Assembly: GCF_033095865.1 (NCBI RefSeq)
Contig: NZ_AP019365.1
Location: 1,523,501 to 1,587,500, forward strand
From: Pseudomonas sp. KU43P
GTDB lineage: Bacteria; Pseudomonadota; Gammaproteobacteria; Pseudomonadales; Pseudomonadaceae
DNA length: 64,000 nucleotides
Reading direction: 5' to 3'
Numbering within the stretch: the stretch's first letter is position 1; every line of letters begins with the position of its first letter. Below the pieces are notes generated by a model, which worked only from the letters and a program-made list of their open reading frames with translations, made no database searches and had not been told where the DNA came from. The position numbers and the translations under genes were made by a program. Shown in pieces: positions 1 through 5,809 of this stretch.

Positions 1-430
1 TCTCTTCGCGGTACACCCCCGGCGGCACCGAGATCAGGTCACGGTCGGTAAGGACGGTCTCGAAGCGCTCGCCATCCTTCTCGATGATCACCTTGAGCTT
101 GCCGCGCAACACGAAGAACACTTCCTCGACGTCGGTGTGCAGGTGGGGCGGGCCCTCGTGGCCGGCCGGGATGACCATGGTGGAGAAGGTGAAGTGCTCG
201 GACGGGATGGTGTTCATGTCGCTGCCCACGCCCGTGCCGCCGGTGCCCACGTAACGCATCTGCGCGCGGCGGAACTTGGGGTCGTAGTCGGCCTGGAACT
301 TCAGCGCGTCCCAGTCGTAGCGGCGGGTTTCATAGCGGGCGATGCGGGTCTGCATCCAGCTGGCGAGGTCGGCGTCGGCCGGGCGGTCCCAGGATTTCGG
401 GGCTTCGTTTTGCACAGAGAGGTCGGTCAT
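1..430 (-). CDS. Cupin-domain protein, 3' end cut by window edge
   Basis: This reading frame starts at the ATG at 430 and runs off the left edge, so about 143 residues are visible. The middle carries a cupin metal-binding signature of the form G-x-E-G-P-P-H-x-H followed by EEVFFVLRG, typical of single-domain cupin_2 enzymes such as aromatic-ring or diketone dioxygenases and related isomerases. It lies 15 bases downstream of the short-chain dehydrogenase and is the last visible gene of the ABC-importer unit, so it probably acts on the imported compound or a product of it. The exact reaction cannot be read from sequence. Family confident, function open. Confidence 0.8.
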   Translation of the reverse strand, partial: MTDLSVQNEAPKSWDRPADADLASWMQTRIARYETRRYDWDALKFQADYDPKFRRAQMRYVGTGGTGVGSDMNTIPSEHFTFSTMVIPAGHEGPPHLHTDVEEVFFVLRGKLKVIIEKDGERFETVLTDRDLISVPPGVYREE

Positions 431-445
431 GAAGGTCTCCTTTGC

Positions 446-1213
446 TCAGGGCATGACGAACCCGCCGTTGACCGGCAGGGTTTGTCCAGTGATGAAGCGC
501 GACAGGTCGGACAGGGCGAACAGCACCGCCCCACTGACGTCATCGGGCAGTTGCGGGCGCTGGATGGCCCGTTGTTCGGTGTACAGGCGGTGGCGGGCCT
601 CGGGCACGTAGGCGGTGGCCTCGACCAGTACCAGGCCGGGGGCGATGGCGTTGACGGTGATGTTGGCATTGCCCAGCTCGCGGGCCAGGCTGCGGGTCAT
701 GGCGATCACCGCGCCTTTGCTGGCGACATAGGCCAGCAGGTTGGGCGCGCCCCACAACGGGGTGTCGGAGGCCAGGTTGATCACCGCGCCACGGCCGCTC
801 TCACGCAGTGCCGGCAGGGCGGCGCGGGTCATCAGCCAGGTGCCGCGCACGTTGACCTGCATGACCTGGTCCCAGGTTTCGATATCCAGCTCTTCGCAGC
901 TCTTGCCGCCGGAGTTGGTGATCGAGGCGTTGTTGACCAGCCCGTCGAGGCCGCCCAGGCGCTTGACCGTGCGTTCGATGCAGGCCTCGATGGATTCGGG
1001 GCTGGCCAGGTCCAGGCTGACGCCGCTGACATCCAGGCCCATGCCGCTCAGCTCGCAGGCGGCCTGTTGCACGCGGCCGGCCAGCACATCGGCGATCACC
1101 ACCCGGGCACCGGCCTGGGCGATGGCCTGGGCGAAGGCATAGCCCAGGCCGCGGGCGCCACCGGTGACCAGCACGCGGCGGCCTTCGAGAAGGTTGTTGA
1201 AGCTGCTCATCAT
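446..1213 (-). CDS. Short-chain dehydrogenase/reductase (SDR) family oxidoreductase
   Basis: A 255-residue classical SDR, a cytosolic NAD(P)H-dependent oxidoreductase. The Rossmann glycine motif TGGARGLG is at residues 17-24, NNAS at 94-97, and the catalytic Ser149, Tyr162 and Lys166 have the standard spacing. An Asp at the end of the second strand (VVIAD) suggests preference for NAD over NADP. Two ATGs are available (1213 and 1210). The first overlaps the permease stop as ATGA, indicating translational coupling. Its place between a permease gene and a cupin gene suggests catabolism of the imported substrate. The substrate is unknown. Confidence 0.9.
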   Translation of the reverse strand: MMSSFNNLLEGRRVLVTGGARGLGYAFAQAIAQAGARVVIADVLAGRVQQAACELSGMGLDVSGVSLDLASPESIEACIERTVKRLGGLDGLVNNASITNSGGKSCEELDIETWDQVMQVNVRGTWLMTRAALPALRESGRGAVINLASDTPLWGAPNLLAYVASKGAVIAMTRSLARELGNANITVNAIAPGLVLVEATAYVPEARHRLYTEQRAIQRPQLPDDVSGAVLFALSDLSRFITGQTLPVNGGFVMP

Positions 1214-1986
1214 TGGCTACTCAGCATGGCTTTGGGGAGGTAGTGCAGGACGCGCTTCTCGGCCCAGACCACGGCGCCATAGGCGAGCACGCCGATCAGG
1301 GTGAGCATGACGATGGCGACGAACACCCCGGCGGTGTTGCCCTGGCCTTCGGCATCCACCAGCAGGAACCCCAAGCCCTGGTTGCCACCGACCAGCTCGC
1401 CGACGGTCACCCCGATCACCGCCAGGGTCGAGGCGATGCGCAGGCCGGAGAACAGCGCGGCCATGGCCGAGGGGAACTCCACCAGGCGGAAGATCTGCCA
1501 GCGGCTGGCGTTCATGGTGCGCACCAGGTTGATCATGTCCGGGTCGACGGTGCGTATGGCCGAGAGCACGTTGATCATCACCGGGAAGAACACGATGAGG
1601 ATGGCGATGAGGATCTTGGGGTAGATGGTGTAGCCGAGCCACATCACGAACAGCGGTGCGAAAGCCACCTTGGGCGCGATCTGCAGGGCCAGGATGTAGG
1701 GCGAGAGCATGGCTTCGGCGGAGGGCGAGAGGCCCAGCGACACACCGATGGCCACGCCCAGCAGGGCACCGAGGGCGAAGCCGACGATGATCTCGAAGGC
1801 GGTGATCAGGGTGTGTTCGAACAGGCCACCGGACTGCCACATGACCAGGCTTTCCTGGGCAACGCGGCTCAGTTGCGGCATGACGAACTCGGGCATGCCG
1901 ACCAGCCCCGGGCCCCATTGCCAGAGCACCAGGAACAGGACCAGCAGGGCGACGCTGCCGGCCACGGACGGGTTGAGGTTTCTCAT
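1210..1986 (-). CDS. ABC transporter permease, SsuC/TauC type
   Basis: A 258-residue inner-membrane permease with about six hydrophobic segments and the EAA-type cytoplasmic loop (EFPSAMAALFSGLRI) that docks with the ATPase. It belongs to the BPD_transp_1 family of nitrate/sulfonate/taurine importers. It sits 29 bases downstream of the binding-protein gene, overlaps the SDR start, and is preceded by AAGG about 10 bases from the ATG. The class of substrate (organic anion, often sulfonate, thiamine precursor or aromatic acid) follows from the family; the actual ligand does not. Confidence 0.9.
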   Translation of the reverse strand: MRNLNPSVAGSVALLVLFLVLWQWGPGLVGMPEFVMPQLSRVAQESLVMWQSGGLFEHTLITAFEIIVGFALGALLGVAIGVSLGLSPSAEAMLSPYILALQIAPKVAFAPLFVMWLGYTIYPKILIAILIVFFPVMINVLSAIRTVDPDMINLVRTMNASRWQIFRLVEFPSAMAALFSGLRIASTLAVIGVTVGELVGGNQGLGFLLVDAEGQGNTAGVFVAIVMLTLIGVLAYGAVVWAEKRVLHYLPKAMLSSQ

Positions 1987-2015
1987 CGGGCGATTACCTT
2001 GTTATGGCCACGGCT

Positions 2016-3017
2016 TCACTTGGCCGCAGTGTTGGTTTCGATGAACTGGTTGCTGTAGAGCTCGTCGAGCTTGGGCTCGCGGGTGACGATGCCTTCGCTG
2101 ACGTAGAACTTGCGCACGGTGTCCAGGCGCGCTGGGTCGATGCGCCCGAGCACCGGCTGGCCGGCGTAGACGTACTCCACGTACAGGCGCAGGGTTTTCT
2201 CCAGTGAGGCTTCCTTGCCGGCATAGGCGGGGACGGCGCGGGCGAAGGTGGCGGCGGCGGCCTTGGGGTCGTCGATGATGTCCTGCAACCCGTGCAGGGT
2301 GGCCTGGACCACACCGCGGACGATCTGCGGGTGATGTTCGATGGCGTCGTCGGAGGCGAGGATCGCCTGGGCCATGCTTTCGAACACCTGCTCACGCGGG
2401 ATCAGCGCGTACTTGAGCCCGGCGTCCTCGGCATTGACCACCCAGTCCGGCACCCCGGCCATGGCCTGGGCCTTGCTGGCCGAGAACAGTTGCCACACGC
2501 CCGACGGGCCGGCGGCCTGGATATCCACGTCGTCCTTGCTCAGGCCCGCCTTGCGCAGCGAGGCGAGCAGGGCGTAGTAGGTGGTGTCGGAGTAGGACAT
2601 CACGGTCAGGGTCTTGCCCTTGAGCTGCTGGATCGACTGGATGTTTTCGCCGGCGTTGGTGGCGATCATGGTCACGCCGCCGCCTCCGAGCACAGCCACC
2701 GCGCGCACCGGGATGCCGTTGGGGCGAACGATGATCGGCGTGTCGCCGATGGCTCCGCCGACCAGGGCGTTGCCGGCGCCGATCTGCTTGGCCACATCGA
2801 CCCCGCCCTTGGCGGCGATGAAGGTAAGGTCCAGGCCCTGCGCCTGGTAGTAGCCCTTTTCCTTGGCGATGATCCACGGCGCGAACGCCGGCAGGCTGGG
2901 CGGGGCAGGCAGCAGGTAGGTGACCTTGGTCGGCTCGGCCTGGGCCTGGGTGGCCAGGCCCAGGGCGAGGGCGGCCAAGGCGCTGTATGCCACGCGCTTG
3001 AGGTGTGTGGTGAACAT
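2016..3017 (-). CDS. ABC transporter substrate-binding protein, NMT1/SsuA type
   Basis: A 333-residue periplasmic binding protein. A Sec signal peptide covers about residues 1-27 (Lys/Arg start, Ala-rich core, cleavage after AQA). The mature part has the NMT1/THI5-like fold markers: PAPPSLPAFAPWIIAKEKGYY, a DVAKQIGAGNALVGGAIGDTP block and LKGKTLTVMSYSDTTYYALL. Such proteins deliver sulfonates, taurine, pyrimidine precursors or aromatic acids to an SsuC-type permease. GGGAG lies at good spacing ahead of the ATG. The gene is between the ATPase and permease genes, so the three encode one importer. Confidence 0.9.
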   Translation of the reverse strand: MFTTHLKRVAYSALAALALGLATQAQAEPTKVTYLLPAPPSLPAFAPWIIAKEKGYYQAQGLDLTFIAAKGGVDVAKQIGAGNALVGGAIGDTPIIVRPNGIPVRAVAVLGGGGVTMIATNAGENIQSIQQLKGKTLTVMSYSDTTYYALLASLRKAGLSKDDVDIQAAGPSGVWQLFSASKAQAMAGVPDWVVNAEDAGLKYALIPREQVFESMAQAILASDDAIEHHPQIVRGVVQATLHGLQDIIDDPKAAAATFARAVPAYAGKEASLEKTLRLYVEYVYAGQPVLGRIDPARLDTVRKFYVSEGIVTREPKLDELYSNQFIETNTAAK

Positions 3018-3048
3018 GCTAACTCCCGGGTGATGTGGGGGGCGTCGG

Positions 3049-3900
3049 TCAGTGCAGGTCGAGGTCTTCGCCGACCTTCAGCAGATCCATCAGGCGGCCG
3101 GCCAGCGGGCCGATTTCCGGCAGCTTGCGGCGCTCCAATGGGTTGTTGCGGTAGGGCAGGTCGATCTCGATTTCCTCGATGATCGTGCCGGGGCGTGCAC
3201 TCATCACCAGCAGGCGGTCGGACAGCGCAATGGCCTCGACCAGGTCGTGGGTGATGAACAGCGCGGTCTTCTTTTCCTCGAACAGCATCTGTGCCAAATC
3301 CTGCTGCAGGATCATCTTGGTCTGTGCATCCAGGGCCGAGAACGGCTCGTCGAGAAACAGCACCTGCGGGTCGATGGCCAGGGTGCGGGCCAGCGCGGCG
3401 CGCTGGCGCATGCCACCGGACAGCTGGAACGGGTAGTGGTCGGCAAAGCCTTGCAGGTGGCAGCGCTTGAGCAGATCCTCGGCGATGACCTTGCGCTGGG
3501 CGGCGGGCATGCCCTGGATCTCCAGGCCCAGTTCGACGTTGCGGCGGATGCTGCGCCACGGCATGAGCAGGTCTTTCTGCAGCATGAAGGCGACCTTGGG
3601 CACCGGGCCGTTGACGGCTTCACCGCTGACCAGCACCTCGCCTTCGGTGGGGCGGTACAGGCCGGAGCCCATGTTGAGGATGGTGCTCTTGCCGCAACCG
3701 GATGGGCCGATGATGGACACCACTTCGCCGCGACGGATCTGGAAGTTGACGTTGCGAATGGCGAATGGCGCATCCGGCTGACCTTTGGCGGGGAAGGCCT
3801 TGCCGACGTTGCGGAATTCGATTTCCGTCGGCGCCTGGTCGCTGTTGCGTTGCGGCTCGTGCCACTGCGGAGCGATTGCGTACATCTCTTTCACAGCCAT
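3049..3900 (-). CDS. ABC transporter ATP-binding protein, SsuB/TauB type
   Basis: A 283-residue ATPase, first gene of the importer unit. Walker A is GPSGCGKST at 65-73, the signature LSGGM starts at residue 160, and Walker B LFLDEP is at 181-186, followed by the D-loop SALD. An N-terminal extension of about 30 residues precedes the ABC domain, and the C-terminal tail after the H-loop (FITHD) resembles sulfonate and nitrate importers. A sigma-54-like promoter lies about 45-60 bases upstream. It energises uptake through the permease and binding protein encoded directly downstream. Confidence 0.92.
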   Translation of the reverse strand: MAVKEMYAIAPQWHEPQRNSDQAPTEIEFRNVGKAFPAKGQPDAPFAIRNVNFQIRRGEVVSIIGPSGCGKSTILNMGSGLYRPTEGEVLVSGEAVNGPVPKVAFMLQKDLLMPWRSIRRNVELGLEIQGMPAAQRKVIAEDLLKRCHLQGFADHYPFQLSGGMRQRAALARTLAIDPQVLFLDEPFSALDAQTKMILQQDLAQMLFEEKKTALFITHDLVEAIALSDRLLVMSARPGTIIEEIEIDLPYRNNPLERRKLPEIGPLAGRLMDLLKVGEDLDLH

Positions 3901-3943
3901 GGGAGCGTTCTCTGGTCTGTTTTATAGGTGATACGCCGTTTAG

Positions 3944-3959
3944 TGCATGAACAATGCCA
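3944..3959 (-). promoter_or_regulatory. Candidate sigma-54 (RpoN) promoter for the importer operon
   Basis: On the minus strand this reads TGGCATTGTTCATGCA, with GG and GC separated by exactly ten bases, as in the -24/-12 elements of RpoN promoters. Fifteen of the positions are compatible with the loose consensus TGGCAY-R-N4-WTGCA. Transcription would begin near 3934, giving a leader of about 34 bases before the ATPase ATG at 3900. No enhancer-binding protein gene is adjacent. This is a pattern match only. Confidence 0.4.
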
Positions 3960-4071
3960 GCTGTAAAATTTCCCTCAAATATTTAGAAATTACTTATTTA
4001 TTAACAAGTTGCAGAGTTTTGTGAGTTTTGTTGTTGTTTTATATATGAAACAAGGTTTTCTATATGGCACG

Positions 4072-4127
4072 AAAATGCCCAGCAACTGAGCATGAGGCGA
4101 TGCTCGTGCGTGGTTGCTGGGCATTTT
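4072..4127 (-). terminator. Large two-tier stem-loop, likely terminator of the 4803-5684 gene
   Basis: A 15-base inverted repeat (AAAATGCCCAGCAAC and its complement, 4072-4086 and 4113-4127) encloses a second hairpin (GAGCAT/ATGCTC, 4088-4105). The arms end in A4 and T4, so it could terminate on either strand. It lies between the exporter gene ending at 4803 and the start of the importer operon at 3900. The 28-bp array is therefore probably transcribed as part of the exporter's 3' tail. Confidence 0.6.
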
Positions 4128-4175
4128 GGGTAACGTGAAAAGTGGCGTGGTTTCGCAGGTGAAACAGTGCTGGAT

Positions 4176-4778
4176 TCATCGCCGGCAAGCCGGCTCCCAC
4201 AAGGGCAGCGCTGGTCTTTTGTGGAAGCAAGGGCAGCGCTGGTCTTTTGTGGAAGCAAGGGCAGCGCTGGTCTTTTGTGGAAGCAAGGGCAGCGCTGGTC
4301 TTTTGTGGAAGCAAGGGCAGCGCTGGTCTTTTGTGGAAGCAAGGGCAGCGCTGGTCTTTTGTGGAAGCAAGGGCAGCGCTGGTCTTTTGTGGAAGCAAGG
4401 GCAGCGCTGGTCTTTTGTGGAAGCAAGGGCAGCGCTGGTCTTTTGTGGAAGCAAGGGCAGCGCTGGTCTTTTGTGGAAGCAAGGGCAGCGCTGGTCTTTT
4501 GTGGAAGCAAGGGCAGCGCTGGTCTTTTGTGGAAGCAAGGGCAGCGCTGGTCTTTTGTGGAAGCAAGGGCAGCGCTGGTCTTTTGTGGAAGCAAGGGCAG
4601 CGCTGGTCTTTTGTGGAAGCAAGGGCAGCGCTGGTCTTTTGTGGAAGCAAGGGCAGCGCTGGTCTTTTGTGGAAGCAAGGGCAGCGCTGATCTTTTGTGG
4701 AAGCAGTGGCAGCACTGATCTTTTGTGGAAGCAAGGACAGCAATGTCTTTTGTGGGAGCTGGCTTGCCAGCGATTGGG
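4176..4778. repeat. REP doublet (REPIN) whose spacer holds the 28-bp array
   Basis: The left REP arm is at 4176-4202 (core GCCGGCAAGCCGGC then TCCCAC) and the inverted right arm is at 4751-4778 (GTGGGAGC then a variant core TGGCTTGCCA). Elsewhere in this window the two arms are separated by about 5-50 bases. Here they are about 550 bases apart because the spacer is filled by the tandem array. Confidence 0.85.
4201..4759. repeat. 28-bp minisatellite, 20 units, 17 identical
   Basis: The unit AAGGGCAGCGCTGGTCTTTT plus GTGGAAGC repeats every 28 bases from 4201. Units 1-17 (4201-4676) are identical. Unit 18 (4677) has one change, unit 19 (4705) several, and unit 20 (4733, 27 bases) merges into the right REP arm. 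The unit tail TTTTGTGGAAGC resembles the start of that arm (TTTTGTGGGAGC), so the unit looks derived from the REP junction. The 28-base period is not a multiple of three and is stop-free in several frames, so long open frames here are artefacts, not genes. Confidence 0.97.
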
Positions 4779-4802
4779 CTGCACAGCAGCCCCTACGATC
4801 GA

Positions 4803-5684
4803 TCAGGCACTACGCCGCGCAGGCTTGAGCACCAGCCATAGCGCCGCAGCAATCAGCAACCCGCCATACAGGTGCCCCATCGACAGCGGCTCATCCAGTA
4901 GCCATGCGCCCCACAGCACGCCGAACACCGGAATCAGGAACGTCACGGTGCTGGCCTTGACCGGCCCGATCTCGGCCAGCAGGCGGAAGTACAGGATGTA
5001 GGCGAAAGCGGTGCACAACAGCCCCAGGCCCAGCAGTGACATCCACACCTGCCAGCCGCCCCAGCTGGCAGGTGGCTGGGTCAGTGCGCTCCAGGCGAAC
5101 AACGGGGTCATCATCAGCGTGGCGCCGAGCATGCTGCCCAAGGCCGAGAGGCGGCTGTCCAGGCCACTGATCCAGCGCCGGGCGAGGAACCCGGCAAAGC
5201 CGTAGCAGGTGGTCGCCGCCAGGCAGGCCAGGGCGCCTTGCAGCAACGCCATATCCACGGCCACCGGGCCGGCGCCGCTGAGGATGCCGACGCCGAACAG
5301 GCCAAGGAAGATGCCGCACAGTTTTGCCGGTGTCATCGCCTCACGGAAGAACAACGCGCCGATCAACACGCCCATCAGCGGTGTGGTGGCATTGAAGATC
5401 GCCGAGTAGCCCGCCGGCAGCACCTGCGCTGCCACCGAATAGAAGGTGGCCGGGATCCCTGAGTTGATCATGCCCAGTACCAGGCAGGCGCCGAGTTTGC
5501 CTTCGAAGTTCCAGCGCACGCGGGCGGCGGCGAGCATGGCGATCAGGCCCAGGCAGGCGATGGATACGCGGAAGAAGGCGGTCGGCACGGTGCCCAGTTC
5601 GGGGGCGATGATGCGCATGAACAGGAAGCTCGCCCCCCAGACAGCGGCAAGGGTCAGCAGGCGGGTCAGGGCGATGGGGCTCAC
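4803..5684 (-). CDS. EamA/DMT-family transporter
   Basis: A 293-residue inner-membrane protein with about ten transmembrane segments arranged as two EamA halves; the second half begins near LACLAATTCYGFAGFLARRW. Such proteins export metabolites or amino acids. I chose the GTG at 5684 because GGAGA lies 8 bases upstream. Longer starts back to 5795 would translate a REP-containing intergenic stretch and add an unlikely hydrophilic leader. The REP-flanked array follows its stop, and a large hairpin at 4072-4127 is the first good terminator downstream. Substrate unknown. Confidence 0.85.
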   Translation of the reverse strand: MSPIALTRLLTLAAVWGASFLFMRIIAPELGTVPTAFFRVSIACLGLIAMLAAARVRWNFEGKLGACLVLGMINSGIPATFYSVAAQVLPAGYSAIFNATTPLMGVLIGALFFREAMTPAKLCGIFLGLFGVGILSGAGPVAVDMALLQGALACLAATTCYGFAGFLARRWISGLDSRLSALGSMLGATLMMTPLFAWSALTQPPASWGGWQVWMSLLGLGLLCTAFAYILYFRLLAEIGPVKASTVTFLIPVFGVLWGAWLLDEPLSMGHLYGGLLIAAALWLVLKPARRSA

Positions 5685-5809
5685 AGCGGTCTCCAGGTAC
5701 AAGGCAGGGCGCGAGTGTACGCGAGGGGGGGAGGTGGGTTCTTGTGCTTTCTTGCGGTGTGAATCTGTTCCCCACGGGTACAACGCAAGCCTCAAGGGTG
5801 TGATCTCCC

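Follow-up and report, generated by a model that had tools for sequence, protein, structure and literature searches.

A single REPIN of Pseudomonas sp. KU43P has been turned into a minisatellite: the element, at positions 4176-4778 of the window (the whole 64,000-nucleotide stretch of DNA that was analysed), encloses between its two arms 19 tandem 28-bp units followed by a 27-bp unit 20 that runs into the right arm. The array is no lone oddity, and the same architecture recurs in other REPINs. It appears likely that the part of one REPIN that extends from the left arm's tip across the spacer and into the beginning of the right arm was duplicated in tandem by slippage or template switching, and that it then grew to about 20 copies. 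The parts of the array are (in window coordinates):

4178..4201, plus strand: left REP arm ATCGCCGGCAAGCCGGCTCCCACA, the first arm of a convergent pair, read from the sequence; its last 2 bases are the first 2 of unit 1.
4200..4675, plus strand: units 1-17, identical and 28 bp each (TRF and unit comparison).
4676..4731, plus strand: unit 18, with one change, and unit 19, with four, from the unit comparison.
4732..4758, plus strand: unit 20, degenerate and 27 bp long, with a tail TTTTGTGGGAG that already belongs to the right REP arm (unit comparison).
4751..4774, minus strand: right REP arm TGTGGGAGCTGGCTTGCCAGCGAT of the convergent pair, read from the sequence.

TRF reports a single array of period 28 at 4200-4759, with 20.0 copies and 97% matches. 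An earlier note on this DNA had described 20 tandem 28-bp units between REP arms; the inverted arms and the array are upheld, but there are 19 full units, and the twentieth is 27 bp long and merges into the arm. The note's description of the units themselves (1-17 identical, 18 with one change, 19 and 20 degraded) agrees with the comparison unit by unit, in which divergence climbs rightward from none in units 1-17 to one change in unit 18, four in unit 19 and the degenerate unit 20. The left block (476 bp) contains no change; if mutations in the units are independent of one another, the rule of three puts its divergence below about 0.6%. A 37-mer covering one unit and a third has 18 matches in the whole genome (≤3 mismatches) and 18 in the window alone, with starts at 4200-4676, so all matches lie inside the array.

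The unit CAAGGGCAGCGCTGGTCTTTTGTGGAAG joins three pieces, namely 2 nt from the end of the left arm, an 18-nt spacer, and 8 nt from the start of the right arm (with one change), and the array therefore arose inside one REPIN. Since unit 20 ends in the unchanged native right arm, the direction of derivation is plain. The earlier proposal that the unit tail copies the start of the right arm is borne out: 11 of 12 bases match, a score reached by 6 of 20,000 shuffled units, and the tail of unit 20 is the arm. The 18-nt spacer within the unit is of the usual short class for REPINs.

In the available text on REPINs of Pseudomonas (Bertels and Rainey 2011; PMC3116915), these elements resemble the present locus in having inverted REPs around a spacer, many genomic copies, an intergenic position and Y1-family transposase genes; here, about 20 copies of the spacer plus arm tip replace the ordinary spacer. 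The two inverted REPs (4178-4201 and 4751-4774) carry their GTGG tags on the inside, and they belong to a multicopy population, with 254 REPs in 1.2 Mb and 143 strict short-spacer pairs genome-wide (0-73 in the 18 other genomes searched). They stand 549 nt apart, whereas the spacer measures 3-39 nt in 93 of the 97 pairs sampled. A REP-linked tandem repetition is also a feature of tandem REPIN clusters and of tandem REP arrays, but their units, as described in the same available text, are whole REPINs or REPs plus flanks; the KU43P unit contains neither an entire REP nor flanking DNA. The BIME-2 of enterobacteria are likewise tandem arrays built from REP pairs; in the accessible portions of the relevant papers (PMC2817692, PMC8266576) each of their units holds whole REPs, whereas in KU43P the outer arms are single and the 28-bp unit holds only 2 + 8 nt of arms. 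In its near-identical head-to-tail copies of 28 bp, within the range of about 10-100 bp, the array is like a bacterial minisatellite (VNTR), known here from one genome of the species, with the difference that its origin can be read from its ends, which are the arms of one REPIN. It resembles a CRISPR in its many direct repeats of about 28 bp, but its units abut and there are no variable spacers.

The recurrence of this architecture was assessed by a position-by-position scan for REPs in 60 stretches of 20 kb each, spaced evenly along the KU43P genome (1.2 Mb, with the window left out); convergent REPs less than 700 bp apart were counted as pairs. The 254 REPs formed 97 such pairs. Spacers longer than 45 nt were found in four of the 97, and all four are internal tandem duplications. 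Two further arrays come from outside this sample: one from the 20 short stretches that were chosen for similarity to the window, which are excluded from all rates, and one from another species. The six are:

L177, KU43P, even sample: internal array of 43 bp x 2.
L203, KU43P, even sample: internal array of 62 bp x 10.
L212, KU43P, even sample: internal array of 62 bp x 2.2.
L229, KU43P, even sample: internal array of 54 bp x 5.
L196, KU43P, chosen by similarity to the window: internal array of 38 bp x 7, ending in the native right arm.
L072:4964-5119, P. kilonensis: internal array of 26 bp x 6 between REP arms, ending in the native right arm.

The suggestion of the earlier note that other REPINs be searched thus met with arrays of the same kind (units of 43, 54, 62 and 62 bp, plus the one of 38 bp). 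The four duplications of the even sample are each cut at a different arm depth. At all six loci, as in the window, the outer ATCGC...GCGAT bases are single and the inner sequence alone is repeated. Of the 21 tandem loci with a period of at least 20 in the even sample, 7 lie near REPs, compared with the 3.1% of bases found no more than 100 bp from a REP (binomial 2e-6). The window itself holds 13 convergent REP pairs, 12 of them with ordinary spacers. Elsewhere in the genus, a small sample of 400 kb from one genome (G385) held 35 REPs and 12 convergent pairs, none of the pairs with an internal array and one with a 71-nt non-tandem spacer, and a similarly small sample of 400 kb from another (G015) held 2 REPs and no convergent pair. 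Across 138 loci of relatives (906 kb, some species being represented twice and KU43P left out), a REP-enclosed array was found in the P. kilonensis locus only; that array is unrelated to the one in KU43P and lies, by chance or because the site is favoured, just behind a relative of the same exporter gene. Tandem arrays of whole REPs with flanking DNA were also observed in KU43P, at L172, L182, L183, L189, L193 and L225 (for example, 361 bp x 3 at L189 and 93 bp x 5.7 at L172); arrays of that sort have been published before. A double-tagged REP palindrome pattern was tried as a mark of internal arrays and rejected as unspecific, as it matched 17 of 19 genomes, with mostly isolated palindromes among the matches listed.

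On one side of the array is the stop codon of an exporter gene, on the other the start of an ABC transporter cluster; gene and cluster are both encoded on the minus strand. The features of this neighbourhood are:

4803..5690, minus strand: EamA-family exporter gene, ending towards the array (ORF and annotation evidence).
3049..3900, minus strand: ATPase gene of the ABC transporter cluster, starting beyond the array (ORF and annotation evidence).
4776..4792, no strand: short inverted repeat GGGCTGC-ACA-GCAGCCC beside the right arm, read from the sequence.
4072..4127, no strand: hairpin between the array and the ABC gene, read from the sequence, with forms of it in orthologous regions L130-L133.

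Inverted repeats similar to that at 4776..4792 follow REP arms at two other loci of the same genome (L193 and L172). Judged by its exporter gene, KU43P is closest, among named relatives, to P. plecoglossicida NBRC 103162, in which this gene differs by 3.5%; the nearest relatives of KU43P are placed in the P. putida group. A segment of about 16.3 kb that includes the ABC cluster (window 1-4758 plus L281:1977-13700; G000:C1:1511977-1528258) is absent at this place in P. plecoglossicida (L019), which jumps between both sides of the segment within a single REP (14-base alignment overlap); in KU43P the segment has a REPIN at each edge, and L020-L022 likewise have its two sides adjoining.

A search of 397 other genomes of the genus (≤3 mismatches; a set drawn evenly from a larger group) gave no match to the array, a four-unit probe gave 0 of 398 (without positive control, the genome set repeating the first draw, so that little is added), and an exact-match search of viral contigs did not find it. 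Eight orthologous intergenic regions of relatives were compared. At the orthologous site of G385 (L131) there is an ordinary REPIN with the same left start point and a 34-nt spacer, which means that the REPIN site is older than the array and agrees with the earlier idea of a REPIN-born locus, here an amplified spacer plus part of the right arm. The 34-nt spacer is of another length class, and a single-copy ancestor of the array was not seen among the relatives examined. Of the other regions, L130 (G215) has the left arm only, L133 a right-arm remnant, and L135 and L136 other REP arrangements, whilst no REP is visible in L132, L134 and L141. At the orthologous site of another species (L135, also L035), TGTGGGAGCGGGCT occurs twice at the REP edge.

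The anatomy of the array, the derivation of its unit, its absence from the relatives examined and the recurrence of its architecture in other REPINs are observed, and an origin by slippage or template switching would join them. Strand slippage or template switching on the replicating, hairpin-folded REPIN would have produced the first duplication. Further gains in copy number may have come about by slippage or unequal exchange between identical units, which could pair through the palindrome CAGCGCTG, and the most recent growth would have been towards the left side; the earlier note had also placed recent growth there, and the left units are indeed identical and those at the right end the most diverged. 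The positions of the junctions fit slippage or template switching in a folded hairpin. At L203, L212 and L229 they lie, as judged by eye, on direct repeats of 6, 6 and 8 bp, which are present because each arm is itself a palindrome. At the window, L177, L196 and L072 they share about 1, 1, 3 and 0 bases (by eye, and at L196 with one added T), and the breaks are still inside or beside the arms. These four junctions offer little shared sequence for plain slippage, however, and the lack of a single-copy ancestor and of any internal array in the 12 sampled pairs of G385 also count against the hairpin-slippage reading.

The main rival, which we consider unlikely, is an array made by a RAYT, in which an HuH transposase would cut within the REPIN to give a single-strand circle, and rolling-circle copying would reinsert a tandem array. 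In the available part of their paper, a rolling-circle model was proposed for BIMEs by Nunvar and colleagues (PMC2817692). KU43P has two Y1 transposase genes (G000:C1:169063 and 2489984), the first with at least three exact REPs within 3.3 kb; the transposase class and its cut sites are putative here. Cuts of REP-associated transposases are given as C|T and C|A in the accessible text of a further study (PMC8266576), and the window junction allows a reading as C|T joined to C|A, just as those of L203, L212 and L229 can be placed, by eye, at C|T. The junctions of L177, L196 and L072, on the other hand, fit neither of these two cuts on both sides (by eye), and chance alone would give one shared C in a quarter of cases.

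A wider version of the hairpin-slippage reading can be put forward tentatively, namely that REPIN hairpins are recurrent generators of minisatellites: breaks in the paired arms would repeatedly duplicate the interior and leave the outer bases single, a mirror event would collapse REPINs to single REPs, and a RAYT nuclease possibly makes the first cut. The text available from PMC3116915 mentions the reduction of a REPIN to a single REP by an internal deletion, which would be the mirror image of the internal duplications.

It is improbable that the array is functional and under selection, with its repeated CAGCGCTG palindromes binding a protein or tuning either the exporter's transcript end or the ABC cluster's promoter region. 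Its predicted fold is far stronger than that of shuffles (z -13 as RNA and z -10 as DNA), but this follows from the repetition of an 8-bp palindrome that shuffling destroys; a single unit is predicted to fold no better than its shuffles, with pairing between neighbouring units only. The identity of units 1-17 could speak for selection but is also expected from recent growth, and the array is in no other genome searched. The palindrome also occurs in other short REPIN spacers (exactly in 2 of 45 and with ≤1 change in 5 of 45, compared with shuffle means of 0.01 and 0.4), and since it is commoner there than in shuffles it was probably inherited from REPIN spacers. The array thus probably has no selected function, and an effect on the exporter transcript end would be a side effect. 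Transcription of the array as a putative 3' tail of the exporter is possible; a consensus terminator scan of 3850-5000 gave no minus-strand terminator-like site and did not flag the hairpin at 4072..4127. As neither strand of the 28-bp unit contains a stop codon, several long frames of 183-295 aa run through the array in both directions (window 4000-4784); a coding reading was rejected, as 8% of shuffled units are likewise stop-free on both strands. Three microRNA matches in Rfam lie far below gathering scores and were taken as chance.

That the number of units was inflated or collapsed in assembly is very improbable: tandem arrays are error-prone and the count is that of the assembly, but the genome (G000) is a single contig of 5,869,691 bases and 100% complete, the variant units are ordered at one end, and similar arrays exist elsewhere in KU43P and in another species.

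The accessible parts of the REP and REPIN literature, chiefly non-subscription, that was searched (PMC3116915, PMC3733652, PMC2884548, PMC12306157, PMC2817692, PMC8266576, PMC9777792, PMC8450116, PMC3686654) already describe REPINs themselves, whole REPINs clustered in tandem, BIME-2 and minisatellites derived from REPs. No description was found there of an amplification restricted to the interior of a single REPIN.

The array shows one source of bacterial minisatellites, with internal tandem copies in 4 of 97 sampled convergent REP pairs of KU43P. Natural junctions at varied arm depths could discriminate between slippage, template switching and the REP transposase and, if variable, REPIN-internal arrays might serve as fast-changing markers for strain typing. 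If REPIN hairpins do act as recurrent generators, one hairpin would explain both the internal arrays and the REP singlets.
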